DNA of 45,089 nt from a virus, in the IMG/VR virus record IMGVR_UViG_3300020471_000352, positions 1-45,089 of that record; one strand, written 5' to 3'. A model generated the notes under the pieces. The model saw only the letters and a program-made list of their open reading frames with translations, searched no databases and was not told the DNA's origin. Position numbers and translations under genes: made by a program. Shown here piece by piece: positions 2,658 to 38,632 of the stretch (within the stretch, counting starts at the first letter, position 1; every line of letters begins with the position of its first letter).

Positions 2658-3988
2658 GCCGCTAATTCCTCATAAGCTTGAGCAAGACTAGCCTGTAAGC
2701 TAGGCGCACCATAATAGCCTTGTGCATATATATTGCTATAGTTTGAGTTTAAAATGTCTTGCTGTATTTGATAAAAGTCTGACGGCCCAGTACCCGCCAG
2801 CATACCAGCAGTAGACAGGCCGGGAGAAGTTTGAATAGGTGAGGGCGTAAGATAGGTCATGTCCACAAACTCAAAAGGATTTTTTATTTGTTGCATAAAC
2901 TCTTGTTGGTCTTTACTAGCCTGAAAACTATCATATGCTTTTGCCGCCCCAGCCAAACTTAATTCATAGCCTTGTTTTCCTAAAGCAGTTTTAGCTTTTG
3001 TACCTAGAGATTCTGACACTGTTCTAGAGGCAGGATCACCCGCACCTATAAAATCATCAAACTCTGTCGGAGGAAGGTTAGGCTGTCGCGCTATATTTTC
3101 AAGAGATCTGTCTAGACTAACACCGCCTTTTTTGGTTATTGGATCAAATGTACTTGTTGACTTATCTAATAAAGAAGGAGCTTGATAAGTTCCTTGCGTT
3201 GCGCCAGCCGTAAAAGCACCCTCTGGTAAATTACGAATTTGTTCTGGTAGCATTACTGTTTGTGAACCAAGTTGATATGTAGTTCCTTCTGTACCTAGTC
3301 CTAAACTATCTGCAACATCAAGACCTACACCCTGATTACCGAGAGTTCCTGTTGCTCTGTCTGGGCCTATTGACAGTTTGCCTGTTTCTGCATCGTAACT
3401 AATCTTAGAGGTGTCAAAGTCTCCTGTTATACTTTCTTGTAAGTTTGCCTGAATACCAAACTTATTCATACTAGAATCAAACGTAGATTTAGAAAACAAC
3501 TGCCCCAAGTCTTCGCCTACGGTACTCCAAGCCTTTTGCGTAGAGTCCCAAGCACTTTGAAAATTCATATTTGTAATATCAAGTTTACCAGCGGTAAGGT
3601 CTTTTAAAAATCCACCAAAAGCTTCGCCACCCGGAAGACTATTAATTGTAGCGCCCACTACGTTACCAATTGTTTTAGTAACGGCAGAAGTTACTGATTT
3701 AAAAACCGATCCAACACGAGTACCTACTTTGACTGCGGCGTTTAAAAAGTGTCCAGCGCCTTTAACAACAGCACCTAATGCACCACTTAATTGTGTTCCC
3801 ATCATTCCGGTAGCTAGTCCTCCTAATGCCGGTAGCGCATAGGGCATAATAAGAGCTAAACCTATTTGGCCTACAATGCCAATCTTGCCCATAAACTTAC
3901 CGACCTTTTTAAAGACACTCTTTACTGCCTTTCCGATTTTCTTAAAGACCTTTTTAATACCTTTAAAAATTTTACTAAAGAATCCCAT
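2654..3988 (-). CDS. Internal virion protein with basic amphipathic N-terminus (444 aa)
   Basis: Residues 1-40 are a Lys/Phe/Ile amphipathic repeat (GFFSKIFKGIKKVFKKIGK and on), followed by a Gly/Ala/Leu-rich hydrophobic segment at about 41-75. This is a membrane-active peptide layout seen in phage proteins ejected into the cell envelope. The rest is Gly/Ser/Thr-rich and looks like a flexible virion protein. It lies three bases after the 1096-residue gene and overlaps the next gene by 4 bases. Membrane insertion during DNA ejection is my inference; no homologue of known function is recognised. Confidence 0.6.
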   Translation of the reverse strand: MGFFSKIFKGIKKVFKKIGKAVKSVFKKVGKFMGKIGIVGQIGLALIMPYALPALGGLATGMMGTQLSGALGAVVKGAGHFLNAAVKVGTRVGSVFKSVTSAVTKTIGNVVGATINSLPGGEAFGGFLKDLTAGKLDITNMNFQSAWDSTQKAWSTVGEDLGQLFSKSTFDSSMNKFGIQANLQESITGDFDTSKISYDAETGKLSIGPDRATGTLGNQGVGLDVADSLGLGTEGTTYQLGSQTVMLPEQIRNLPEGAFTAGATQGTYQAPSLLDKSTSTFDPITKKGGVSLDRSLENIARQPNLPPTEFDDFIGAGDPASRTVSESLGTKAKTALGKQGYELSLAGAAKAYDSFQASKDQQEFMQQIKNPFEFVDMTYLTPSPIQTSPGLSTAGMLAGTGPSDFYQIQQDILNSNYSNIYAQGYYGAPSLQASLAQAYEELAA

Positions 3989-3991
3989 ATG

Positions 3992-6900
3992 TTAGTCTCC
4001 CCCACCGCCTGAAAATATTCCTTGAGCAAGTTGTAATAAATTTGCAACTGATGTACTTGATTCGTTACTGGCGGCTGTTTCATTACCAATTGCCGCAATG
4101 TAAAGTTGTGTGTTTAATGCTTTGTCATTTTCAAAAGACTGTCGCAGATATGCGGCCTCGTCCCTTGCCGCTAAAAGTTCTGCCTCATAACTCATTGCAG
4201 TTACCTGAAACTGTTGTTGAACATTAAGTTTATTCATTTCATTTTCTGCCGCAGTGTTCATCATATTAACTCTACGTTCATATTCAACTGCGGCTTGTTC
4301 TGCAACAAAAGCATTTTGAGCATTAAACTGTTCGCGATTAGCGGCTATCTGAGCATTAGCAATACTTGCCGCAGATTCTGCACGAATGTTTGCAGATGAA
4401 ATAGTGGCATCTGCGCCAATCTGCGTAGCCTCTAACTGGCCTGCAATTTGCAGTTGTGTTGTAGTCAGTCTATTGGCTTCACCCGCATTAAACTGAGACA
4501 TGGCGTTTTGTTGTTGTACATTTGATTGTTCTATTTGAGCCGCCAAGCTTGCATTAAACTGATTCATTTGATTTTCACTTTGAGCATTAAACTGTCTTGA
4601 TGCGTTATCCATAGACTGATTAGACAACATCGTTTGTTGCATCATTTGAGCATCTAACACTGCCGCCTGTTGACGATTATTTAAATTTGCCATGTCCATA
4701 GCTAAAAATGATTTAGCGTTTTCAACTGCAATCTTTGTTCTGTTATTAGCATTTGTAAGGTCTAGTTGTGCCATAGCCGTAGCATTTTGAATAACCGTTT
4801 GCTGTCGATTACTTAAATCTTGCATAGTCATTGTTTGCATAAATTTACTATTAGCTAACTCTACTTGCTGGTCAGCATTAAATCTACTTAAATCTACATT
4901 AGCTACCATAGCCGCATTTTGAACAGCCCGTTGCTGATCTACACTTAATTGTGCAACATTCATACGACTTGCAATTTCAGCCTGAAGCATATTTGTTTTC
5001 ATGCGAGAGTCTAGGTTTGCAAGTCTTGTTTGTTGGTCAGCCGTAAGGTTTTCTGATTCTGCTTGATTCAAAGCAGTTAGATTTGCAAGTTCTATCTGTT
5101 GCTCATTACTAAGGTTTGCCAACTCCATTTGTTGCTTGAAGCCAGCATTCTTGGCAAGGAAGTCTGCGGCTGTTTGCATTTCAACAAGACGCGATTGATT
5201 TTCAGCAGACATATTTGCCGCATTGGTTTGGAACTCAAACTGAAGATTTGCTAGTTCAGTTTGTTGATCGTTACCTAAATTCTGAGCATTGATAGACTGC
5301 TGGTTCTGAACATTCTGGATTGCTGTCTGCTGACGATTTTGAAGGTTCGCTAGTCTAGTTTGCTGTGCTTGAGCCGCAGTAGTAATCATAGCGTCCTGTG
5401 CAAACTGGCTTTGAAGCACTGACATCTGTTGTGCCATCTGAGCCGTCTGAGAAGCCGCTGTCTGACGATTAGCGGTGTTTTGTAGCCTTCGCTGTGCGTC
5501 TAAGTTAGCTTGTTGTACGTTAGCCTGTTGCTCGTTTGAGAGGTTCTGAGCGGCCCTTTGTTGTAGAGCTTGGGCATTAGACTGAGCAATAGGCATCGCA
5601 CTTTGAATAATTGCATTTAAAAGTGCATCACGGCCTACTGTAGAAGCGTTCAAACCTCTTTGTTGCATCATTCTATTTACTTGATCTACTGCTGGTCTAG
5701 CCCACGTAGGAACTTCACCATCTTCAATGCCTGCAAGAAGTGTCTCCATCTGTGAAGATACAAGAGCCTCTGTAGGTAAAGCCGCAACAGCCGCCTGTAC
5801 TTCTACAGACTCATCGTCTATTTGAGCTTCAACAGTTGCAGGGTCTTCAACGATGGTTGCACTAAGCTCTGGAGGAAGCTCCCCAACTTCTGCAATCATC
5901 TCAGCCGCCGCACCCTTAGCCGCTGTGCCTTTTACTGCACGAACCTGTGCGGCCTCATAATTTAAAGTTTCTAAAATTTGAGCGGCGTCTGCATCTTCAG
6001 CGGCCTTTCCAAGAATGGCTTCTCTTTCAGCTTTTTCTGCTTCTTTTGTAGGTGCAACATCAGTAGTTTTACCAGTTACTTTATCGACGTAAGCACCGTC
6101 AGAAATTTCGTACTGTGCGGCTTCTGCTAAAGCGGCTTGCTCCTGTGCGGCATCTCTTTCAGCCGCCACAGCCCTTTCAGTTAATTTTTGTTCTTCAAAC
6201 TTAGCAACCGCCTCATCACTTACTGTTCCTTGAGCCGCATCAACTGTTGGAACCTCTTTTAAATTAATAAGCGCTGGGTCCATTTGTGCGGCAGATACCG
6301 GAGTAGGCGCTTGGGCTTGAGCAACAGAGCCCATAGCTACGTTTCCAGACATAGTTGGCGTTGGTGTTACAGGCGTTGGTGGGGCTGGTTGCCTTATAGG
6401 AGGCCTTGGCCCAGCAGTTTGTGGCATAACAGGTTCAGGAGTCGTTGGAGATCTTACAGGCGTTTTTCTTACAGAAGCCTCTCTTGTTTGCCTGCCGCCC
6501 CTTTGAGCGGCCTTACGAATGCCACCACCCCTAGCTCCACCACGACCTTCTTCGTCTTCGTCTTCCTCTTTTTTCTTTTTGTTTTTGGGTAAAGAAGAAA
6601 GAAGATTATTAAAAGTATCTTCAGTATCTTGAGGAATAAAAACTTTATCTTCGTCTAAAACAGCTTCTTCTGGAATAGGCTGGCTTGGTAGAGTTTCATA
6701 TTTAATTGGTTCAGTTTTTTCAATAACTGGCGCTTCAACATCAGAGGACTTGGTTGCAAAACCCTTTGCAGGATCATAACCAATAGAACCTCTTGTATCA
6801 GAAGTAAACTTAGCAGGATCAAATCCAGCTTCTCCTGCTCGTATAGTCAGTCCTTTATTTTTTAAGGCTTCAAACTCTTGATCGGTAACTACACCATCCT

Positions 6901-25565: not shown

Positions 25566-25594
25566 ATTATATACCTGATTTACAGTTTTGTCAA
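25566..25594 (-). promoter_or_regulatory. Consensus sigma-70 late/left promoter
   Basis: On the minus strand, TTGACA (25594-25589), a 17-base spacer and TATAAT (25571-25566). Both boxes match consensus at all six positions. Transcription would begin near 25558-25560, at the start codon of the small terminase gene. Confidence 0.9.
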
Positions 25595-25610
25595 GCATAT
25601 CCCTTGACAA
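25588..25610. repeat. Inverted repeat joining the two -35 boxes
   Basis: Perfect 8-bp arms TTGTCAAG (25588-25595) and CTTGACAA (25603-25610) flank a 7-base centre. The arms contain the -35 boxes of the two divergent promoters, so a dimeric protein bound here would affect both. Confidence 0.85.
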
Positions 25611-25632
25611 ATTTAAAATCCATGTGTATAAT
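25604..25632 (+). promoter_or_regulatory. Consensus sigma-70 rightward promoter
   Basis: TTGACA (25604-25609), a 17-base spacer and TATAAT (25627-25632), all consensus. Transcription would start near 25639 and run about 740 bases before the first likely gene at 26377. Confidence 0.9.
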
Positions 25633-25736: not shown

Positions 25737-25783
25737 CATGAGTATATTATAGGGGAGGGGCTATGGCCTCCTGCCCAGTGTGT

Positions 25784-25834
25784 TGAGCCATTCAGGATAT
25801 GAATGATCTTCAAAGGCTCATCAGTCTCGTGAAT
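25784..25834. repeat. Repeat unit A: stem-loop plus TCAGTCTCGTGAAT
   Basis: TGAGCC (25784-25789) can pair with GGCTCA (25815-25820), with an inner stem ATTCA/TGAAT (25790-25804). TCAGTCTCGTGAAT follows at 25821-25834 and recurs exactly at 25917-25930 in unit B. Confidence 0.6.
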
Positions 25835-25896
25835 GCAACAAAAAAGATATATAGATATATTAAAAAGTTCTAAAGTCTCCCGCCATTTATAAACTA

Positions 25897-25930
25897 AATA
25901 GACTTTAAAGATCTATCAGTCTCGTGAATA
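25897..25930. repeat. Repeat unit B: short stem plus TCAGTCTCGTGAAT
   Basis: ATAGA and TCTAT arms surround TTTAAA, and the same 14-mer as unit A follows, 96 bases further on. The arm sequences differ from those of unit A, while the 14-mer is unchanged. Confidence 0.55.
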
Positions 25931-25948
25931 CTGGTTACCAGACTCAAA

Positions 25949-25964
25949 AGATCTTCAAAGATCT
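25949..25964. repeat. Inverted repeat AGATCTT-CA-AAGATCT
   Basis: Two perfect 7-bp arms with a 2-base centre. It shares GATCTTCAAAG with unit A (25805-25815), so it is a third, partial member of the iterated set. Confidence 0.6.
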
Positions 25965-26062
25965 ATCAAAATATATTGATATTTCTAAAAACTCTATAAA
26001 CTCAGAAGCTTATAAAATAAAAGCATACCTTACCAAGGGGATCACAGAGCACTTTAGTGATC

Positions 26063-26214
26063 AATTTTTAACCACTTCAATTACTCAGAAGGCCTCTAAA
26101 ACTCGCCACAATGGACGATCTATTTTAAAAGGCCTTACCCTTACTTTTAAAACTGTCTCGCCCTCGCGCTCTCCTGAGATTCTCAGCGATGTTACTGGTT
26201 AATTTTTAACCACT
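26063..26214. repeat. Direct repeat AATTTTTAACCACT (two copies) and nearby palindromes
   Basis: AATTTTTAACCACT occurs at 26063-26076 and 26201-26214. The second copy lies in an inverted repeat (GGTTAA/TTAACC, 26197-26211). CTGAGA-T-TCTCAG at 26174-26186 is another odd-centred palindrome, sharing the AGATTCT centre of the 17-bp early-gene palindrome. Confidence 0.55.
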
Positions 26215-26272
26215 AAAAACACTGATTTCAGACTTGGCACACTTATTGCTAATGCAAATACCATGCCAACAG

Positions 26273-26299
26273 ACCTAAAAATTATTTTCTTTTTTAGGT
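26273..26299. repeat. AT-rich inverted repeat ACCTAAAAA/TTTTTAGGT
   Basis: Nine-base perfect arms with a 9-base loop, about 75 bases upstream of the first early gene. It could be a weak terminator/attenuator or a duplex-unwinding element. Confidence 0.55.
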
Positions 26300-26376
26300 A
26301 ATATTTTATATACTTTTAAATCTAGGTATGCATAATAGGTGTTGTGGTATTTCATTAATTATATAGGAGATCAATC

Positions 26377-26856
26377 ATGACATCGCTAGCTGAGTTTGAC
26401 CGCGCCCGCGGCCACGCCATTATAGAATCTATAAGGCGTCATAAAGCGGAGGGCGATCAAATCGGCACCTCCGAACAGGAGTATCTGAAAGCGGGCTTTG
26501 CTCTGTTTTTACAAGAGGATACTTCTAAGGATGCGGAAGCGGTACTGGTAGAATATTGGATGCTGAACATTGAGGGTGAGAACGCTATACGGACTGATAA
26601 CCAGATCCGTGCGGCATTCTCTAAGGCCTCAGAAGATTTCCACGATCAAACCGGCGGCTCTAATATCGTCGTAAAAGATGGGAAATTAGTTCTAGCCCAA
26701 CAACGCGCCAAACGCGTTCGCCCGTTTGAGAAGGTGTCAAAAGACGTCCGCAAGTCTCTGCCTAAGCTATCGGCGGCGGCGGAGAAACGGATCTCTAAAG
26801 CTACTCTGGTTGCATTGCAAGCTGAGTTAAAGGCCATCGCCAAAAAGTCTAAGTGA
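26377..26856 (+). CDS. First early gene, unknown basic protein (159 aa)
   Basis: AGGAG at suitable spacing precedes ATG 26377. The 159-residue product is helical and has a Lys/Arg-rich C-terminal third (QQRAKRVRPFEKVSKDVRKSL ... AELKAIAKKSK), suggesting nucleic-acid binding. Codons are richer in G and C (CGC, GCG) than in the replication genes. A 16/17 match to the early-gene palindrome lies inside the coding sequence (26419-26435, encoding IIESIR). A strong terminator follows the stop. Position suggests an early host-takeover protein; no family recognised. Confidence 0.75.
   Translation: MTSLAEFDRARGHAIIESIRRHKAEGDQIGTSEQEYLKAGFALFLQEDTSKDAEAVLVEYWMLNIEGENAIRTDNQIRAAFSKASEDFHDQTGGSNIVVKDGKLVLAQQRAKRVRPFEKVSKDVRKSLPKLSAAAEKRISKATLVALQAELKAIAKKSK
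26419..26435 (+). repeat. 17-bp palindrome, near-perfect copy inside a gene
   Basis: ATTATAGAATCTATAAG differs from the consensus CTTATAGA(A/T)TCTATAAG only at the first base. It is translated in frame in the first early gene. Confidence 0.7.
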
Positions 26857-26863
26857 CTACCGC

Positions 26864-26887
26864 GCCCTCGCAAGAGGGCTTTTCTTA
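26864..26887 (+). terminator. Intrinsic terminator after first early gene
   Basis: GCCCTC-gcaa-GAGGGC stem-loop followed by TTTTCTT, 8 bases after the stop. The 17-bp palindrome begins inside the T-run. Confidence 0.9.
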
Positions 26888-26900
26888 TAGATTCTATAAG
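26884..26900 (+). repeat. 17-bp palindrome, exact copy 1
   Basis: CTTATAGATTCTATAAG. It is directly abutted by a degenerate second copy at 26901-26917 (14 of 17 positions match). Both lie upstream of the 55-residue gene at 26935. Confidence 0.9.
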
Positions 26901-26917
26901 CTTATGGGATCTATACG
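26901..26917 (+). repeat. 17-bp palindrome, degenerate tandem copy
   Basis: CTTATGGGATCTATACG, 14/17 to consensus, immediately after exact copy 1. It looks like a decaying duplicate. Confidence 0.6.
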
Positions 26918-26934
26918 AAAGGAGGTTGTTTGCT

Positions 26935-27102
26935 ATGAAAAAATCAGACCGCGCCCATGTTGCGCGCAAGCTAGGTTATCGCACCGTTAACCTATCGCGC
27001 CCCGTTCAGGCTTCACAGTCCAAGCGGGTAGGCGGTAGACTCAAGCGGGTACGTATTGAATTTGTAGATCCTGATACCTATTTGTCGGGTCTGTGGGATT
27101 AG
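26935..27102 (+). CDS. Small basic early protein (55 aa)
   Basis: A strong AAAGGAGG ribosome-binding site precedes ATG 26935. The 55-residue product is Arg/Lys/Ser-rich (begins MKKSDRAHVARKLGYRTVNL, ends DTYLSGLWD). The TAG stop is followed at once by the next palindrome copy. Likely nucleic-acid or host-protein binding; function unknown. Confidence 0.65.
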   Translation: MKKSDRAHVARKLGYRTVNLSRPVQASQSKRVGGRLKRVRIEFVDPDTYLSGLWD

Positions 27103-27119
27103 CTTATAGATTCTATAAG
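27103..27119 (+). repeat. 17-bp palindrome, exact copy 2
   Basis: CTTATAGATTCTATAAG begins directly after a stop codon. Its last bases AAG plus GGG form the ribosome-binding site of the 39-residue gene; 8 bases separate the repeat from ATG 27128. Confidence 0.92.
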
Positions 27120-27127
27120 GGGATCAT

Positions 27128-27247
27128 ATGAAACATAATCCTGTCGCTAAATATGCGCGGCGGGTAAACCGTCATGCTGTCCACCGTGATCGTAAAAAGG
27201 ATTCGCGGCGGGTTCGCTGTGTCAAACATAAAGGCAAGGGCTTATAG
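27128..27247 (+). CDS. Tiny Arg/Lys-rich protein ending inside a palindrome (39 aa)
   Basis: The 39-residue product (begins MKHNPVAKYARRVNRHAVHR) is extremely basic. Its last codons, GGC TTA TAG, are read from the left arm of the next palindrome copy, so the stop codon is supplied by the repeat. The ribosome-binding site is supplied by the preceding copy. An RNA- or DNA-binding peptide is plausible. Confidence 0.6.
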   Translation: MKHNPVAKYARRVNRHAVHRDRKKDSRRVRCVKHKGKGL

Positions 27248-27257
27248 ATTCTATAAG
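27241..27257 (+). repeat. 17-bp palindrome, exact copy 3
   Basis: CTTATAGATTCTATAAG. It contains the TAG stop (27245-27247) of the 39-residue gene and is followed after 2 bases by another exact copy. Confidence 0.92.
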
Positions 27258-27259
27258 GG

Positions 27260-27276
27260 CTTATAGATTCTATAAG
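27260..27276 (+). repeat. 17-bp palindrome, exact copy 4
   Basis: Second of a tandem pair (GG between copies), shortly before the terminator at 27285. Confidence 0.92.
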
Positions 27277-27284
27277 AAATTTAC

Positions 27285-27306
27285 AGGGGCTTCGGCCCCT
27301 TTTTTG
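27285..27306 (+). terminator. Intrinsic terminator
   Basis: AGGGGC-TTCG-GCCCCT with a UUCG tetraloop followed by six T. It separates the basic-peptide genes from the membrane-protein gene. Confidence 0.92.
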
Positions 27307-27318
27307 TGGAGAAAAATC

Positions 27319-27552
27319 ATGCTCTGGTTTTTAAAGATAGCGCACTTTTTGCTGGTTTGTTTAGGGTCAGCGACTGCCGTGTATTGTGTCCTATTGGATT
27401 CAATGTTAGGCATAAGCTTTTGTATTCTCTGCGTTTTTGGTTCTGGTTATTGTCTGCACTATCTTACTCAGATAGAGGTACGGCAGGCTCAAGAAAAGTA
27501 TTTTTCTATTGGGCTTGAAGTATATGAGCAGGCTTGTGATATTAAAAAGTAG
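27319..27552 (+). CDS. Small two-TM membrane protein (77 aa)
   Basis: The start is placed at ATG 27319, preceded by GGAG at normal spacing. Two hydrophobic segments (about residues 3-24 and 30-47, Cys-rich) are followed by a charged tail (IEVRQAQEKYFSIGLEVYEQ). Early phage membrane proteins may affect superinfection or membrane processes; that is only a possibility here. Confidence 0.65.
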   Translation: MLWFLKIAHFLLVCLGSATAVYCVLLDSMLGISFCILCVFGSGYCLHYLTQIEVRQAQEKYFSIGLEVYEQACDIKK

Positions 27553-27561
27553 TTTTATTAG

Positions 27562-27578
27562 CTTATAGAATCTATAAG
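27562..27578 (+). repeat. 17-bp palindrome, exact copy 5
   Basis: CTTATAGAATCTATAAG followed by GAG, forming the AAGGAG site for the 57-residue gene; 8 bases to ATG 27587. Confidence 0.92.
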
Positions 27579-27586
27579 GAGATTTT

Positions 27587-27760
27587 ATGGAATTTCATAT
27601 TGAATATTGGGAGCAGTCTACCGCATTTGGCTCATCTTGGTTTTTGGATAGCACGTTTTTAGATTTGGGTGAAGCCCAAAAAGTGTTTGAAAAAAATGTG
27701 GCTGAGTTTGATAATTTGACTTGGCGAATGATAGTGGTGCTGAACGCTCACGGCTTATAG
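27587..27760 (+). CDS. Small unknown early protein ending inside a palindrome (57 aa)
   Basis: The 57-residue product starts MEFHIEYWEQSTAFGSSWF and is a compact mix of aromatic and acidic residues. As in the 39-residue gene, the last codons GGC TTA TAG come from the left arm of the following palindrome. 'FLDLGEAQKVFEKNV' suggests a helix pairing with a beta-sheet. No family recognised. Confidence 0.65.
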   Translation: MEFHIEYWEQSTAFGSSWFLDSTFLDLGEAQKVFEKNVAEFDNLTWRMIVVLNAHGL

Positions 27761-27770
27761 AATCTATAAG
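27754..27770 (+). repeat. 17-bp palindrome, exact copy 6
   Basis: CTTATAGAATCTATAAG. The left arm holds the TAG stop of the previous gene and the right arm starts the AAGGAG site of the next, whose ATG is at 27780. Confidence 0.93.
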
Positions 27771-27779
27771 GAGATTCAA

Positions 27780-28034
27780 ATGATTGAAACATTGTACGTA
27801 ATTCAACACTTTGACAACAACGATTGGGTTGTTAATGATGTGAAATCAATTCGTGGTGAGAGAAGCGAATATCACAAAAGAGAAATAGCACGGATAGCAT
27901 CTCAAGGATACTTTGATGCTGTTCAGTGGGATATCAATAGGCCTGTTCGTTTGTTGCAAATTAACAGAGATGCTGACGGCAACACAACTAGTGAAATCGT
28001 TCTCTGCCAACACTCTGTATTTGTAATGGTGTGA
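27780..28034 (+). CDS. Small unknown early protein (84 aa)
   Basis: The 84-residue product starts MIETLYVIQHFDNNDWVVND and contains RREIARI-like basic helix (KREIARIASQGYFDAVQWD) and a beta-rich C-terminus. The stop TGA falls 3 bases before the next palindrome. No motif known to me; part of the palindrome-punctuated early series. Confidence 0.7.
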   Translation: MIETLYVIQHFDNNDWVVNDVKSIRGERSEYHKREIARIASQGYFDAVQWDINRPVRLLQINRDADGNTTSEIVLCQHSVFVMV

Positions 28035-28037
28035 TAG

Positions 28038-28054
28038 CTTATAGAATCTATAAG
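28038..28054 (+). repeat. 17-bp palindrome, exact copy 7
   Basis: CTTATAGAATCTATAAG + GAG gives the AAGGAG site for the 31-residue gene (ATG 28065, 10 bases downstream). Confidence 0.92.
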
Positions 28055-28064
28055 GAGATTCAAA

Positions 28065-28160
28065 ATGGAAGAGACAGAAATAGTTTTAGAGGCCGATGAT
28101 GCTGTCGAGCAGTATGATGACATTGATCCTGAATCACCTCTTGACTTTAATGAAAATTAA
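28065..28160 (+). CDS. Tiny acidic protein (31 aa)
   Basis: A 31-residue, highly acidic peptide (begins MEETEIVLEADDAVEQYDD). It has an ideal palindrome-linked ribosome-binding site and is bracketed by two palindrome copies. Acidic mini-proteins of phages can mimic DNA or inhibit host enzymes; that is speculation here. Confidence 0.55.
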   Translation: MEETEIVLEADDAVEQYDDIDPESPLDFNEN

Positions 28161-28175
28161 TATAGTATTTCAGGT

Positions 28176-28201
28176 GGCTTATAGATTCTATAAGCCTTTT
28201 T
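28176..28201 (+). terminator. Palindrome copy acting as an intrinsic terminator
   Basis: Exact copy 8 (28178-28194) is extended by GG and CC to 10-bp arms and followed by TTTTT. This is the sequence layout of an intrinsic terminator, although the stem is AT-rich. Confidence 0.6.
28178..28194 (+). repeat. 17-bp palindrome, exact copy 8
   Basis: CTTATAGATTCTATAAG followed by CC and a T-run instead of a ribosome-binding site. It lies 35 bases before the DUF932-like gene. Confidence 0.92.
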
Positions 28202-28229
28202 CGTAGTAAAACCAACCAAGGAGACAGTG

Positions 28230-29174
28230 ATGTCTAATGTACTTTCTATGTTCCAAAGGCCTACGCCTTCAGTGTTTGACTCAGGCTACGGCGATGCTGA
28301 CTTTGATGTAGCGTCAGTCCCTCTCATGTACTTTAATGAAGACGGTGAATGGCACCCCTCATCAAAGGTTGCAGTAGTTCGCACTGATACCATGCAAGAG
28401 CTAGGTGTGCATGGTCACAACTACAAGCCTGTTGCACCTAAAGAGCTTATCCAAGCCCAACGCGATATCATCATGCGTAGCGACTTGGAAACGGGTGGAC
28501 TGACTGAGCGCATTGATACGGCGTACAACGGTGCGGCTACGTTTGTGCGATACAGACTGCCAGAGCATACTTACACTACGCCTGACGGTGATACGGCTTG
28601 CCTGACTTTGCTGGGTGTGACTTCGCTCAATAGTACCTTCTCTTTTATTATGTCTGCTGGTGCTCATCAATCCGCTTGCTTCAATGGGCAAGTATTTGTT
28701 GGTGGAGCGGCGGCTTTGTTCAAGGCTCGACACACTAAGAATCTTGATATCAAAGCGGCCTCTAGATCTATTACAAAAGCTCTAGATGTTTTCCAGAGTG
28801 AGCAGGAGCTATGGGCTGAAATGTATCGGACTCAAGTAACCCGGAAGCAAGTGATGTTTATTTTAGCAGAGGCCGCTGGGTGTCTTGACTTAGTACGTGC
28901 CACAGTTAATGAAAGTGGTGCGTCTTGGTCAGCGGTGTTTGATAATCTGCCGCGAATCAATAGTACATTAACTTATCTGGCTAAAGCTTGGAACGAATAT
29001 TCTGGTAAGATAGGTTACAACCAGTGGGCTGTTTACAATACGCTCACAGATTGGTCTACTCATGCTCCAGCGGCTACCAAAAAGACTCAGGCCAACATTG
29101 CCTCAGTTAATCACAAGCGCCAAGAAATTGTTCGCAACGTGTGTAACTCTGATGTCTTCCGTATCGCGGCCTGA
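28230..29174 (+). CDS. DUF932-family phage/plasmid protein (314 aa)
   Basis: AAGGAG at 28218-28223 favours ATG 28230 over the in-frame GTG three bases upstream. The body (VRTDTMQELGVHGHNYKPV, TLLGVTSLNSTFSF, HQSACFNGQVFVGG, ARHTKNLDIKAASRSITKAL) fits DUF932, a family widespread in phages and plasmids and of uncertain biochemical role. It is the largest early gene and is probably highly expressed. The next small gene overlaps its end. Confidence 0.78.
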   Translation: MSNVLSMFQRPTPSVFDSGYGDADFDVASVPLMYFNEDGEWHPSSKVAVVRTDTMQELGVHGHNYKPVAPKELIQAQRDIIMRSDLETGGLTERIDTAYNGAATFVRYRLPEHTYTTPDGDTACLTLLGVTSLNSTFSFIMSAGAHQSACFNGQVFVGGAAALFKARHTKNLDIKAASRSITKALDVFQSEQELWAEMYRTQVTRKQVMFILAEAAGCLDLVRATVNESGASWSAVFDNLPRINSTLTYLAKAWNEYSGKIGYNQWAVYNTLTDWSTHAPAATKKTQANIASVNHKRQEIVRNVCNSDVFRIAA

Positions 29175-29325
29175 TAATGTTGATATTGAATCTCTTGTTC
29201 AGCTTTATATTTATATTAGGCCTAATCCTGATTATTCAGGGCTGGCTCAAAAGCTGAGAGACTTGCACTTCACAGAGTCTGAGATCTTCAACGTCCTTCA
29301 CAGAGTGCGTGAAGGTTATTACTAA
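29152..29325 (+). CDS. Small unknown protein overlapping DUF932 gene (57 aa)
   Basis: I place the start at ATG 29152, overlapping the DUF932 gene by 23 bases; the frame is open further upstream but inside that gene. The product (begins MSSVSRPDNVDIESLVQLYI, ends IFNVLHRVREGYY) looks helical and folded. No clear ribosome-binding site is seen, so the start is uncertain. Confidence 0.5.
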   Translation: MSSVSRPDNVDIESLVQLYIYIRPNPDYSGLAQKLRDLHFTESEIFNVLHRVREGYY

Positions 29326-29327
29326 TC

Positions 29328-29352
29328 AAGGCCCTTCGGGGCCTTTTCTTTT
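29328..29352 (+). terminator. Intrinsic terminator
   Basis: AAGGCCC-TTCG-GGGCCTT then TTCTTTT, just after the 57-residue gene and one base before the next palindrome copy. Terminator plus palindrome repeats the arrangement at 26864-26900. Confidence 0.92.
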
Positions 29353-29353
29353 G

Positions 29354-29370
29354 CTTATAGATTCTATAAG
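29354..29370 (+). repeat. 17-bp palindrome, exact copy 9
   Basis: CTTATAGATTCTATAAG + GGG provides the ribosome-binding site of the gene at 29381 (10 bases away). Confidence 0.92.
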
Positions 29371-29380
29371 GGGAAATAAA

Positions 29381-29590
29381 ATGGAAGTAGATTTTGTGCC
29401 TAACGGCCCAGCAAGTGACTTCGACATAGCAATGATTGCATTTAATTTTGTAGATCATTTTGTTATTTGGCAGACTAACAATGAAGAATATATTTTGAAC
29501 GGACGGCCTGAAAAAATGGAGATAGCTTTACGCCGCTTGTTAACTGAGTTTAGAGATCAAGGAAACATTAATGAAGCAGAAACAGAATAA
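29381..29590 (+). CDS. Small acidic unknown protein (69 aa)
   Basis: The start at ATG 29381 is chosen from the palindrome-linked AAGGGG site; the frame is open upstream through the palindrome. The 69-residue product starts MEVDFVPNGPASDFDIAMIA and is acidic. It overlaps the next gene by 20 bases. No family recognised. Confidence 0.65.
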   Translation: MEVDFVPNGPASDFDIAMIAFNFVDHFVIWQTNNEEYILNGRPEKMEIALRRLLTEFRDQGNINEAETE

Positions 29591-29783
29591 AGAGCCGGTG
29601 ATAAATACGGATAGGCTAGTCAGGTCAGCAATGAATGACGAGGACTACTGCTCTTTTATTCTGGACTGCCTGCACAATGAACAAAGCGAGTGGTCTATGG
29701 ATCAGCTAATGAAATTCTGGATTGATGCATCTTATTCAGATGACACTGTTGAAGAATGGATAAACCGAAATAGGAGAAAGTAA
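29571..29783 (+). CDS. Small unknown protein (70 aa)
   Basis: The 70-residue product starts MKQKQNKEPVINTDRLVRSA and contains DEDYCSFILDCL and WSMDQLMKFWIDASYSDDTVEEW, consistent with a small helical bundle. AAGGAA precedes the ATG. It overlaps the preceding gene by 20 bases and is separated from the next ATG by 1 base. Confidence 0.65.
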   Translation: MKQKQNKEPVINTDRLVRSAMNDEDYCSFILDCLHNEQSEWSMDQLMKFWIDASYSDDTVEEWINRNRRK

Positions 29784-29784
29784 T

Positions 29785-29997
29785 ATGTACTACGTAACAA
29801 CGCGCAAACATGGTGATATGATGATATGGCAACACGTAAAAAAACTACGTAGCTTTAAGGCTACAGACGGTGTTGAATATCTCATAGCTAAAAACAAAAA
29901 AGAAATGAATATAGAAATGGGTACTTCATTGCCAATTTATATAGGCAAGAACGGGAAGCTGAAGAAGACAACCAGCTATGCAGTTTATTTATTTTAG
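29785..29997 (+). CDS. Small basic unknown protein (70 aa)
   Basis: AGGAG lies at good spacing before ATG 29785. The 70-residue product (begins MYYVTTRKHGDMMIWQHVKK) is basic and beta-rich with a short hydrophobic end (TSYAVYLF). No motif recognised. Confidence 0.65.
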   Translation: MYYVTTRKHGDMMIWQHVKKLRSFKATDGVEYLIAKNKKEMNIEMGTSLPIYIGKNGKLKKTTSYAVYLF

Positions 29998-30008
29998 GAG
30001 ATAGTTAA

Positions 30009-30188
30009 ATGAAAATTAAAATAGCCCTGTATTTTGACACCTTTGAACAGGCGGCGGAGCAGGGATACTTTGATGCCCAACGGGACAATAAAACTGAACG
30101 ATGGTGCAAAGAGTTTGAAGTAAATTATTGCTCTGATTATTATATTGAAGATGGTGATGGGTGGCAAATGGGGAGTCAGGAGATATGA
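30009..30188 (+). CDS. Small unknown protein (59 aa)
   Basis: AGGAG precedes ATG 30009. The 59-residue product starts MKIKIALYFDTFEQAAEQGY and ends DGDGWQMGSQEI; it is acidic. Its TGA overlaps the next ATG (ATGA), indicating coupled translation. Function unknown. Confidence 0.65.
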   Translation: MKIKIALYFDTFEQAAEQGYFDAQRDNKTERWCKEFEVNYCSDYYIEDGDGWQMGSQEI

Positions 30189-30583
30189 GTATGTTGTGGA
30201 AGAATGAGTGCCATCACCCAGAAGAAAACTATTTGTTTTCTATGGAGATTGAGGGCGAGAACTATGACGTTTGGGTAGTGCAAAAAGATGATCAGAAGTT
30301 TTACAAAGGCCACTATGAGTTTTGTTTGCGCTATGGCAATGAAGACCACGAGTATAAAAGTAGTTGGTGTTGTGCATGGATTGAGCGTAGTATTTGTTTT
30401 CATTCTAGATTTGCGGATGACAACGAACAATCTGCAAAGGATCGTGACCAATTCATTGAACTCAAAAGACGCTTGCAGGATGCAGGCTTCTGGGATCTGG
30501 AATGGAATTTAGATAGTGAAATCAGAGACTTGCGAGTTGATGTTGAACAATACAATGACTCGCCCCGCTTCAAAAGAGTATAG
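30185..30583 (+). CDS. Unknown acidic protein (132 aa)
   Basis: The start is set at ATG 30185, which overlaps the preceding TGA (ATGA); ATG 30191 has somewhat better ribosome-binding-site spacing and is an alternative. The product has several Cys, Trp and His residues (NECHHPEENYLFSMEIEGENYDVWVV, and SSWCCAWIERSICFHSRF), but no zinc motif I can name. It ends at TAG immediately before palindrome copy 10. Confidence 0.65.
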   Translation: MSMLWKNECHHPEENYLFSMEIEGENYDVWVVQKDDQKFYKGHYEFCLRYGNEDHEYKSSWCCAWIERSICFHSRFADDNEQSAKDRDQFIELKRRLQDAGFWDLEWNLDSEIRDLRVDVEQYNDSPRFKRV

Positions 30584-30600
30584 CTTATAGAATCTATAAG
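30584..30600 (+). repeat. 17-bp palindrome, exact copy 10
   Basis: CTTATAGAATCTATAAG + GGG starts directly after a stop codon and forms the ribosome-binding site of the HhH-type gene (ATG 30609). It is the last exact copy in the window. Confidence 0.92.
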
Positions 30601-34685: not shown

Positions 34686-36347
34686 ATGGGCGATTTTGTG
34701 GAGTACCACAGGCCCTGCCCTGAGTGTGGAGGCAGTGACCCTGTTTCCATAAACGAAAACGGTTCTGCAAAATGCTTTAGTTGTGGAACCTTTTTCAAAG
34801 ACTATGAATCTGCAATGGGAGGCAACGTGGCAGACTTTAATAGCTTTAAAAGAACCAACGACAACGCACCCTTCTCTCAAAACCAAACCTTCTATCACGC
34901 ACTAACAGACCGATCAATCTCACTAGACACTGCAAAGAAATATGGCGTTCGCTCAGTCAAAGATGAGTCGGGCAAGATCACTGAACACCACTACCCTGCG
35001 TACATCAACAATGAAGAAGTCGCTACAAAAATCCGTCGAGAAAATAAAGTATTTAATTGGATCGGTTCTGCCAAGGGAACTGGCCTTTTTGGTCAGCAGA
35101 TTGCACAGACGGGCGGCAAATACATTACGATCACTGAGGGTGAGTGTGATGCGATGGCGGCATACGAACTTCTGGGGAGTAAATGGCCGGTTGTATCTGT
35201 TAAGAATGGAGCACAGGGCGCAGTCCGTGACGCTCAAGAAAATCTTGAATTCCTTGAATCGTTTGATACGGTGGTTATTTCTTTTGACAACGACAAGGCG
35301 GGGAAAGAAGCCGCAAAGAGAGTGGCGCGTCTCCTCAAGCCGGGGAAAGCTAAGATACTTTCACTCCCTGTGGAATTCAAAGATCCTAATGAGATGCTCA
35401 AGCTGGGTCACCACAAAGCTTATGTCACTGCGTGGTGGGCTTCAAAACTTTATACGCCGTCTGGGATTCTGAATGTCAGTGAGGAGCGTGAGAACTACAA
35501 GAAGCGTGAGAGAAAAGAATCTATACGCTATCCTTGGGACGGCCTCAATGACAAGCTTGAGGGACTACGACAAGGAGAACTAATTACACTCACAGGCGGC
35601 ACAGGCTTAGGTAAGTCTAGTGTTACTCGTGAGCTTGAACACTGGCTCATCACCAATACTAACGACAAGGTAGGCGTCATCGCTCTTGAAGAAGATTGGC
35701 GTAGGACTGTTGATGGTATTCTATCTATTGAGGCTAATGCCCGTCTACACATAGACAGTGTTCGCGCCCAGTACAGCGAAGAAGAAATAGATAATTTCTT
35801 TAATGTTCTTTATGATGGTAACAATAAGAACCGCGTCTTTGTTCATGCACACCTTGGGATGAATGATGTGGATAGCGTGTTCAGCAAGCTACGCTTTATG
35901 GCAATGGGGCTTGAGTGTAAGTGGATAGTTTTTGATCACTTACATATGCTTCTGTCTATGACAACAGATGGCGATGAGCGCCGCAATATAGATTCTATAA
36001 TGCACAACTTCAGAACGCTGGTAGAAGAGACAGGCGTGGGCCTCATACTTGTATCACACCTCAGAAGGATTGATGGTAATCGCGGTCACGAGAACGGCAT
36101 TGAGACAGGACTGAATCATTTACGCGGCTCTCAAAGCATCGCTCAGTTATCAGACTGTGTAATATCTTTGGAGCGTAACCAACAATCAGAAGATCCCATT
36201 GAAGCTAGTACCACAAAGGTTCGTGTACTCAAGTCCAGATATACAGGTGATGTGGGTTTAGCCACACACTTGTTTTATGACAAGGACAGTGGTAGGCTCA
36301 GTGAACTACGAATGGAAGTTGAAGAACAAGAAGAAATAGAACTATGA
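34686..36347 (+). CDS. Primase-helicase, T7 gp4-like
   Basis: The 553-residue product has an N-terminal zinc ribbon (CPEC...CFSC; Cys11, 14, 30, 33) and a TOPRIM fold (ITEGECDAMAAY with Glu151; VVISFDNDKAG with Asp201/Asp203). A RecA-like helicase follows, with Walker A GGTGLGKSS (304-312), Walker B WIVFDHLH (413-420) and LRGSQSIAQLSD near 479. It would lay down primers and unwind DNA ahead of the polymerase encoded next (ATGA overlap). All key residues are present. Confidence 0.95.
   Translation: MGDFVEYHRPCPECGGSDPVSINENGSAKCFSCGTFFKDYESAMGGNVADFNSFKRTNDNAPFSQNQTFYHALTDRSISLDTAKKYGVRSVKDESGKITEHHYPAYINNEEVATKIRRENKVFNWIGSAKGTGLFGQQIAQTGGKYITITEGECDAMAAYELLGSKWPVVSVKNGAQGAVRDAQENLEFLESFDTVVISFDNDKAGKEAAKRVARLLKPGKAKILSLPVEFKDPNEMLKLGHHKAYVTAWWASKLYTPSGILNVSEERENYKKRERKESIRYPWDGLNDKLEGLRQGELITLTGGTGLGKSSVTRELEHWLITNTNDKVGVIALEEDWRRTVDGILSIEANARLHIDSVRAQYSEEEIDNFFNVLYDGNNKNRVFVHAHLGMNDVDSVFSKLRFMAMGLECKWIVFDHLHMLLSMTTDGDERRNIDSIMHNFRTLVEETGVGLILVSHLRRIDGNRGHENGIETGLNHLRGSQSIAQLSDCVISLERNQQSEDPIEASTTKVRVLKSRYTGDVGLATHLFYDKDSGRLSELRMEVEEQEEIEL
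35985..36001 (+). repeat. Degenerate 17-bp palindrome inside the helicase gene
   Basis: 14/17 match to the early-gene palindrome; the central 14 bases (TATAGATTCTATAA) are exact. It encodes IDSI within a helicase segment that also occurs in T7 gp4 as IDNL, so protein constraint and chance are possible explanations. Confidence 0.4.
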
Positions 36348-38098: not shown

Positions 38099-38285
38099 CA
38101 TTTTTTTTGTGTGCTGTTTGTTATTAGGTTGTAGTTCATATCCTGAACTAGCCCCAGATGAACGATGCATTGAATGGGTAGAACAAGAACTTATTAAACA
38201 AGAATGTACTCGCTACCCCTACCGCACTTGTATTGAACGCACTACGTTTAGACTAGTTTGTTTACGTCGAGAAAAACTAACATGA
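38085..38285 (+). CDS. Small Cys-rich lipoprotein (66 aa)
   Basis: GTG start at 38085 with AGGAG upstream, overlapping the polymerase end by 14 bases. A short signal sequence (MKRTSIFFVCCLLLGC) ends in a lipobox LLGC, so Cys16 would be lipidated after signal peptidase II cleavage. The mature part has five further Cys (positions about 28, 40, 48 and 59, roughly), suggesting disulfides in the periplasm. Superinfection exclusion or an outer-membrane spanin are possible; it is far from the lysis genes. Confidence 0.65.
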   Translation: MKRTSIFFVCCLLLGCSSYPELAPDERCIEWVEQELIKQECTRYPYRTCIERTTFRLVCLRREKLT

Positions 38286-38299
38286 AGAGGAACTTAGAA

Positions 38300-38632
38300 A
38301 TGAACAGCGCCGACATGGAGCAACAAGAGTTATTTTTAAATGCAAACCCATACGTTCCACAGTATGATTATTCCAGACTAAAAACTGGAAGAGATAAAGT
38401 ATTTAAATTTATGGGGGATAATGCTTGGCATACCCTTTCTGAAATATCAGAGGCGACAGGCAGGCCTGAAGCAAGTGTCTCTGCTTACTTGCGAGATTTT
38501 CGCAAAGAAAAATTTGGCTCTCATATTGTTGATCGTAGGGCTAGATCTGATAGACAGCGGGGTCTGTGGGAATATAAACTTATAAGGAATAGTGAATATG
38601 TCGAGAGAACACGAGCCGAACAGGGTCGGTGA
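38300..38632 (+). CDS. Winged-helix DNA-binding protein (110 aa)
   Basis: AGAGGA suggests ATG 38300; ATG 38282 in the same frame lacks a ribosome-binding site. Residues about 36-95 (DKVFKFMGDNAWHTLSEISEATGRPEASVSAYLRDFRK, then RRARSDRQRGLWEYKL, given in pieces) form a winged helix-turn-helix with a clear recognition helix and beta-wing. It directly precedes a nuclease gene, overlapping its start. It may regulate or target nucleases, or act as a transcription factor. Confidence 0.75.
   Translation: MNSADMEQQELFLNANPYVPQYDYSRLKTGRDKVFKFMGDNAWHTLSEISEATGRPEASVSAYLRDFRKEKFGSHIVDRRARSDRQRGLWEYKLIRNSEYVERTRAEQGR

Follow-up and report, generated by a model that had tools for sequence, protein, structure and literature searches.

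In T4-type phages, an early promoter and a stem-loop together form mobile regulatory cassettes (PeSL), and in T7 RNase III processing sites lie between the early and middle genes. The stoperators of cluster A mycobacteriophages are 13-bp, asymmetric and mostly placed in one orientation, at about 30 per genome, in temperate phages with a known immunity repressor (PMC6550527). The start-associated sequence (SAS) of cluster K mycobacteriophages is a 13-bp asymmetric element, GGGATAGGAGCCC, that lies 3-9 bp ahead of start codons, where it overlaps the Shine-Dalgarno sequence (SD) (PMC3203893). Together with the extended start-associated sequences (ESAS), it has been unexplained since 2011, partly because these repeats show little informative variation. 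Here we describe a 17-bp palindrome, CTTATAGAWTCTATAAG, repeated in the early region of a 45,089-base uncultured virus record (IMGVR_UViG_3300020471_000352 of IMG/VR, positions 1 to 45,089, hereafter the window). Its lineage supplies variation of the informative kind, namely a whole-genome spacer shift and a copy inside a gene with absolute synonymous conservation, and it also has close relatives with and without the system and co-occurring candidate partner genes. Such variation makes the DNA-versus-RNA reading of these repeats testable. We favour, with confidence a little short of even, a reading of the palindrome as a clade-specific multi-copy operator: a dimeric protein encoded by the phage would most likely recognise it as double-stranded DNA and act across the whole early region. 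The relatives compared are metagenomic contigs, many of them short and partly redundant; locus counts are hence not equal to independent events, and distinct instances were counted instead where possible.

Copies of the palindrome in the window

The palindrome has perfect dyad symmetry except for its central base, being made of two opposed 8-bp half-sites, CTTATAGA, separated by a single A/T pair. An earlier inspection of the DNA alone (hereafter the sequence-only reading) had listed ten exact copies, all within the early region, and had described six of them as running into an SD. All ten were recovered at the listed coordinates, with none expected by chance (100 dinucleotide-preserving shuffles), and at all six positions (27103, 27562, 27754, 28038, 29354 and 30584) the final AAG continues into GGAG or GGGG, with ATG 8-10 nucleotides past the palindrome. 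A search of the window allowing up to three mismatches added sites at 26419 (one mismatch), 26901 (three) and 35985 (three), against about 0.2 expected in total; the site at 35985 is probably a chance match. The sequence-only reading had missed the in-gene copy at 26419, the terminator at 28178, the tandem pairs 26884/26901 and 27241/27260, and the stop codons contained in the copies at 27241 and 27754. The copies are as follows.

26419..26435, plus strand: one-mismatch copy inside the first early gene, codons 15-20 of 26377-26856 (mismatch search, homologue alignment)
26884..26900, plus strand: exact copy immediately behind a terminator, opening the leader tandem (exact search)
26901..26917, plus strand: diverged tandem partner (three mismatches) abutting the 26884 copy; predicted RNA pairing with 26884-26900 gives a long stem touching the SD of gene 26935 (mismatch search, folding)
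27103..27119, plus strand: exact copy fused to the SD of gene 27128 (exact search, relatives)
27241..27257, plus strand: exact copy opening a tandem pair; gene 27128 ends at its TAG (27245-27247)
27260..27276, plus strand: exact copy completing the tandem pair, with a terminator (27285-27300) just downstream
27562..27578, plus strand: exact copy fused to the SD of gene 27587
27754..27770, plus strand: exact copy fused to the SD of gene 27780; provides the stop codon of gene 27587
28038..28054, plus strand: exact copy fused to the SD of a 31-residue open reading frame (ORF) at 28065
28178..28194, plus strand: exact copy in an intrinsic-terminator-like hairpin (28176-28196, then TTTTT; -11.3 kcal/mol, z -5.0), kept in relatives
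29354..29370, plus strand: exact copy that follows a terminator (29328-29345) and runs into the SD of gene 29381
30584..30600, plus strand: exact copy running into the SD of gene 30609; 48/48 clade members have this site

The preceding gene has its stop codon inside the motif at 27241 and 27754, and no more than a few bases ahead of it at 27103, 27562, 28038 and 30584. The 28178 copy has the form of an intrinsic terminator, a hairpin closed by GG...CC and followed by a U tract.

Distribution and conservation among relatives

The motif followed by an SD and ATG was found in 35 stretches among 2.9 million viral contigs, all of which align to the window over at least 1.6 kb. Among the IMG/VR matches listed, at least 18 stretches hold two or more exact copies, and all of these are relatives of the window; at least 96 others among the matches listed hold a single copy and are unrelated to it. 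In 257 Gb of bacterial and archaeal genomes the motif-SD-ATG pattern was seen seven times, always single and unrelated, and these chance matches were rejected as a pointer to the bacterial host. In a tree of the 30609 protein, with 124 rows and 55 different sequences, the gene is preceded by the motif in 48/48 rows of one clade (100/100 support) and in 0/76 of the others. The motif is a lineage-specific marker of one phage clade. The sequence-only reading had made its proposal depend on relatives carrying the motif at matched positions, and they clearly do, with copies at the same gene starts.

The terminase region is common to phages with and without the motif, at about 85-93% DNA identity up to approximately window position 25,775. 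Detectable DNA similarity to the motif-lacking relatives (L139, L159, L169, L205, L216) ends there and returns at about 28,280, which places the motif in an exchangeable early-control block. Between the two kinds of phage this block (25775-28280) is replaced, and the motif-lacking ones have unrelated first early genes. Some motif-lacking relatives (L134, L136, L144, L159, L162 and others) carry a repeated sequence, TTTAAAACCCCTTACAGGGTAAGGGGTTTTAAAG, near early genes, with CCCTTTA and CCCTCAC variants; these palindromes were set aside as terminator-like.

The relatives yielded 114 distinct motif instances, of which eight were judged to be chance or coding matches and excluded, so that 106 remained. 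By a looser sorting, 64 of the 114 run into an SD and have a start codon at ribosome-binding site (RBS) distance. A stricter sorting of the 106 gave 63 with an SD and start codon, 19 tandem or single copies upstream of a terminator, 8 terminator-like, 9 within gene 26377, 6 in leader tandems and 1 unclassified. The most frequent arrangement is TAG-motif-GGAG-ATG.

The copy at 26419 gives evidence of selection. In nine distinct homologues of gene 26377, whose proteins are 43-83% identical to that of the window, the arms are conserved at the nucleotide level in every case (9/9). Over five codons, codon pairs encoding the same residue show 0/126 synonymous differences, compared with a gene average of 50%, and the third base of the codon just past the motif differs in 20/36 pairs. 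The site is therefore selected as nucleic acid, far from any start codon. In contig L199 this in-gene copy is not present.

Over all copies the arms are near-invariant. Arm positions 3-5 are invariant in the 106 distinct instances, and upstream of gene 30609 eighteen distinct gene alleles preserve the palindrome, save for the central base and, in L231, the first base. The spacer has one length per locus in 34/34 loci with at least three copies (not counting the leader tandems). In a sister lineage, comprising L199 and the partial contigs L194 and L200, the centre of every RBS and terminator copy measures two bases and not three, giving the 16-bp form CTTATAGATCTATAAG, for which L199 is the only contig covering the candidate regulator genes; such a genome-wide change is expected if one trans-acting factor reads all copies. 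The central base of RBS copies of the 17-bp form is A in 27, T in 23, G in 2 and C in none, and an A/T centre is expected for a symmetric double-strand site. RBS copies carry 19 substitutions in the left arm and 2 in the right, and the steadier right arm fits its additional duty as SD. Such conservation in the aligned sequences indicates that the palindrome is under selection as a lineage-specific control element.

Mode of recognition, candidate partners and proposed mechanism

A protein-bound RNA hairpin should have a conserved loop and a freely covarying stem, whereas a DNA site for a dimer should have conserved half-sites and a fixed spacer. The palindrome shows identical half-sites, fixed spacing and a sequence kept in every context; only the leader tandems and, in the L199 lineage, the terminator copy depart from this. 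No pair was altered in both partners (0/106 distinct instances), and compensatory stem changes are absent from the 106 single-copy instances, with one matched insertion in the leader tandem of L073. Changes in the stems comprise 10 G-U, 3 A-C and 20 other, with no clear excess of G-U. Since the arms are nearly invariant, the spacer uniform, the centre A/T and both-side changes lacking, a dimeric DNA-binding protein is favoured over an RNA hairpin. From this pattern of variation we read the palindrome as a DNA site, some copies of which would have been put to use in RNA as SD, terminator or leader hairpin. The sequence-only reading had left three options side by side, a translational switch, an operator family and an RNA-processing site. 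The operator is favoured by the invariant arms, the fixed spacer, the lack of compensation and the conservation of the coding copy; the SD-hiding switch fares worse, as the predicted hairpin reaches only about -4.8 kcal/mol, or -3.0 in the L199 lineage, and competes in 30 of the 64 RBS copies with a fold of higher predicted stability.

Control at the RNA level is nevertheless the rival that survives best, although we hold it to be unlikely. In this explanation each copy in the early mRNA would form a hairpin, with a 7-bp stem and a 3-base loop, which either masks the beginning of the SD or serves as a target for binding or cleavage by a factor of the phage or the host, giving a translational or processing regulon. 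The 64 instances fused to an SD would fit it, as would the terminator hairpin formed by the 28178 copy across the clade, and the position resembles that of the cluster K SAS, presumed to be translational (PMC3203893, PMC11373665). The long stem of 26884/26901 persists in 4/4 leaders examined, with the help of G-U pairs; in L073, copy 1 carries an inserted G and copy 2 a matching inserted C. Against RNA control, it is the arms and not their pairing that are conserved, the hairpin is weak as given above, and the coding-sequence copy does not lie at an RBS. Pairing between the 27241 and 27260 RNAs was rejected, as their centres never take the complementary ATT/AAT combination. A second hairpin, GAATCT/AGATTC, which would place the SD in a loop, is perfect for some AAT copies and inconsistent with the ATT centre, and was likewise rejected. 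A search for a known RNA family gave no Rfam match above the gathering score, the two sub-threshold matches being to implausible families.

Structural genes occupy the minus strand at 0-25.6 kb, and the plus strand carries early and replication genes, among them a T7-like primase-helicase, a family A DNA polymerase, a Cas4-like exonuclease, endonuclease I and ribonucleotide reductase. Two divergent sigma-70 promoters, each matching the consensus perfectly (12/12), lie at 25566-25632 between the two blocks, and a stretch of about 740 bases separates them from the first early gene. The plus-strand promoter probably drives the early unit. No RNA polymerase was found among the scanned window proteins, and promoters of a phage RNA polymerase or of the N4 hairpin type were rejected on that ground; a promoter at each copy was rejected because -35 matches there equal the background. 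The promoter and the genes considered as partners are:

25604..25632, plus strand: promoter of the early transcription unit, matching the sigma-70 consensus at 12/12 positions, with no motif copy close by
26377..26856, plus strand: first early gene, 159 amino acids, found only in motif-bearing genomes; candidate cognate regulator (co-occurrence, structure model)
26935..27102, plus strand: small basic protein, 55 amino acids, found only in motif-bearing genomes; second candidate partner (co-occurrence)
28065..28160, plus strand: acidic 31-residue ORF flanked by an RBS copy and the terminator copy; found only in motif-bearing genomes

The candidate partners of the motif are genes 26377 and 26935 together with the 28065 ORF. 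Their homologues were found only in motif-bearing genomes, and 0/26 copy-free contigs spanning the interval have them; 28 spanning contigs had been scripted as motif-lacking, and L168 and L211 each proved to have one copy, leaving 26 with none. This co-occurrence is only correlational, since a block moved as a unit would give the same pattern. The structure model of the 26377 product consists of helices followed by a two-strand hairpin (predicted local distance difference test score, pLDDT, 78), which is compatible with a winged helix but does not prove one; the model of the 26935 product is of low confidence. We infer recognition as DNA, a protein partner, and repression over activation, with the 26377 product preferred as the partner and the 26935 product second. 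Another gene between copies, 27128-27247, encodes a very basic protein of 39 residues (DUF7230, PF23876), which is found in motif-bearing and motif-lacking relatives alike.

As there is no copy at the main early promoter, binding probably acts on transcription through the early genes rather than on initiation: the dimer would impede or time the passage of transcription, as a roadblock similar to a stoperator. Each gene cassette would bring its own copy. With the right half merged into the SD in most copies, an incoming gene would arrive with its control site and RBS in one 20-bp connector. An extended form of the operator proposal, clearly more doubtful than the operator itself, is that DNA operator and SD are fused in a 20-bp plug-in connector through which acquired genes join a transcriptional regulon and translation at once, under a new phage regulator family (the 26377 or 26935 product), with site spacing diverged between sister lineages. 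If true, this would explain how fast-changing early genes enter the regulon on arrival, and would offer a compact part for expression work in laboratory strains.

Several observations weigh against the operator. The leader stem and the matched L073 insertions point to RNA pairing, the 28178 copy evolves as a terminator, and in the terminator copy of L199 and L200 a right-arm change keeps the terminator hairpin and breaks the DNA symmetry. The 12/12 early promoter has no copy, and -35 elements are not enriched at the copies, where the best match is that of the background; a promoter-operator is thereby excluded for the window, and the less common roadblock must be assumed. An orphan group (L100/L208) carries one or two near-exact copies joined to RBSs but has neither gene 26377 nor gene 26935, so copies can travel apart from the presumed partner. 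Foldseek returned no significant fold match for the 26377 model (its weak matches, MarR, TetR and ScpB folds among them, were not used as evidence), and the motif-linked proteins scanned include no known repressor, integrase or helix-turn-helix family. A MarR-like gene at 38258 was rejected as the regulator, being found in no other motif-bearing contig. At about the place of this small winged-helix gene (38258-38632; PHROG 1687, E 1.5e-5), relatives carry other winged-helix-like genes.

In favour of an operator, the more distant relatives L220 and L221 carry another perfect 16-bp palindrome, GTTAATCATGATTAAC, in 4-6 copies beside sigma-70-like promoters and early gene starts. In one site this family shows a change in both arms, to GTAAATCATGATTTAC. 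An operator is the natural reading there, which raises its likelihood for the window clade. The sites are:

L220 8876, 9712, 12603, 16102: GTTAATCATGATTAAC family
L221 1909, 3039, 3164, 4450, 6411, 9916: GTTAATCATGATTAAC family
L229 515, 3330, 6844: GTAAATCATGATTTAC, three copies, both arms changed relative to GTTAATCATGATTAAC

A further rival takes the repeat to be mainly a recombination connector, in which the identical short sequences at cassette borders permit homologous recombination of early genes, the exchange itself keeps the sequence uniform, and regulation is secondary. The small early genes at 26935-28230 do change among relatives as cassettes bounded by copies, and orphan copies accompany genes in the L100/L208 lineage. 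Homology breakpoints also coincide with copies more than coverage predicts (42% of 438 fall at copies in both genomes, the copies covering about 10% of the span), a figure inflated by the automatic extension of alignments into identical motifs. However, exchange also occurs at motif-free junctions (29613, 29907, 30178), and recombination alone leaves unexplained why the in-gene copy is kept in a gene that diverges to about 43% identity; we consider this explanation improbable. One further cassette was seen in L199 at about 3282-4241, right after a 16-bp copy: a gene resembling cytosine DNA methyltransferases, with an interrupted reading frame. Finally, a constitutively favourable RBS cassette spread by copying, with no trans-acting factor, would fit the prevalence of the TAG-motif-GGAG-ATG arrangement and the persistence of orphan copies as RBSs, but is very unlikely, leaving unexplained the conserved copies in coding sequence, before terminators and in a terminator, the genome-wide spacer shift and the co-occurring genes.

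Comparison with known systems

Like PeSL, the palindrome belongs to repeated regulatory cassettes that border small variable early genes and are tied to modular gene exchange; PeSL, however, contains an early promoter, whereas the window copies show no promoter signal, and it belongs to an unrelated phage group. RNase III sites are likewise intercistronic RNA stems between tightly packed podovirus early genes, but the 7-bp stem of a single copy is too short for a standard site, and only the tandem leader could form a long stem.

The likeness to the start-associated sequences of cluster K, which the sequence-only reading had already drawn while holding the sequences to be unrelated, stands for position and fails for sequence, symmetry and associated promoters. 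Both systems comprise about 10-20 near-identical short repeats in the non-structural half of the genome, just upstream of the start codons of different gene families and overlapping the SD, with a subcluster-specific inverted-repeat consensus and a few copies inside ORFs. In the present system this position is that of the 64 SD-fused instances and of the six window copies with ATG at 8-10 bp. Nevertheless, CTTATAGAWTCTATAAG does not match the SAS consensus within two mismatches and, unlike the asymmetric SAS with its single orientation, is symmetric save for the central base. ESAS comprises two imperfect inverted repeats of 17 bp, spaced by 4-13 bp and containing SigA-like promoters, whereas the window motif is one compact perfect palindrome merged with the SD, and the best -35 match at its copies equals the background.

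With the cluster A stoperators the palindrome shares multi-copy sites across a phage genome, a probable ability to act without a promoter and a consensus that drifts with lineage (PMC6550527). Its sites differ from the 13-bp asymmetric, oriented stoperators in being symmetric and 17 bp long, with 10-12 copies in 4.2 kb, and known repressor or integrase families were not detected among the scanned proteins. The motif is thus a member of neither cluster K SAS/ESAS nor cluster A stoperators, being closest to the former by its position and to the latter by its proposed action.

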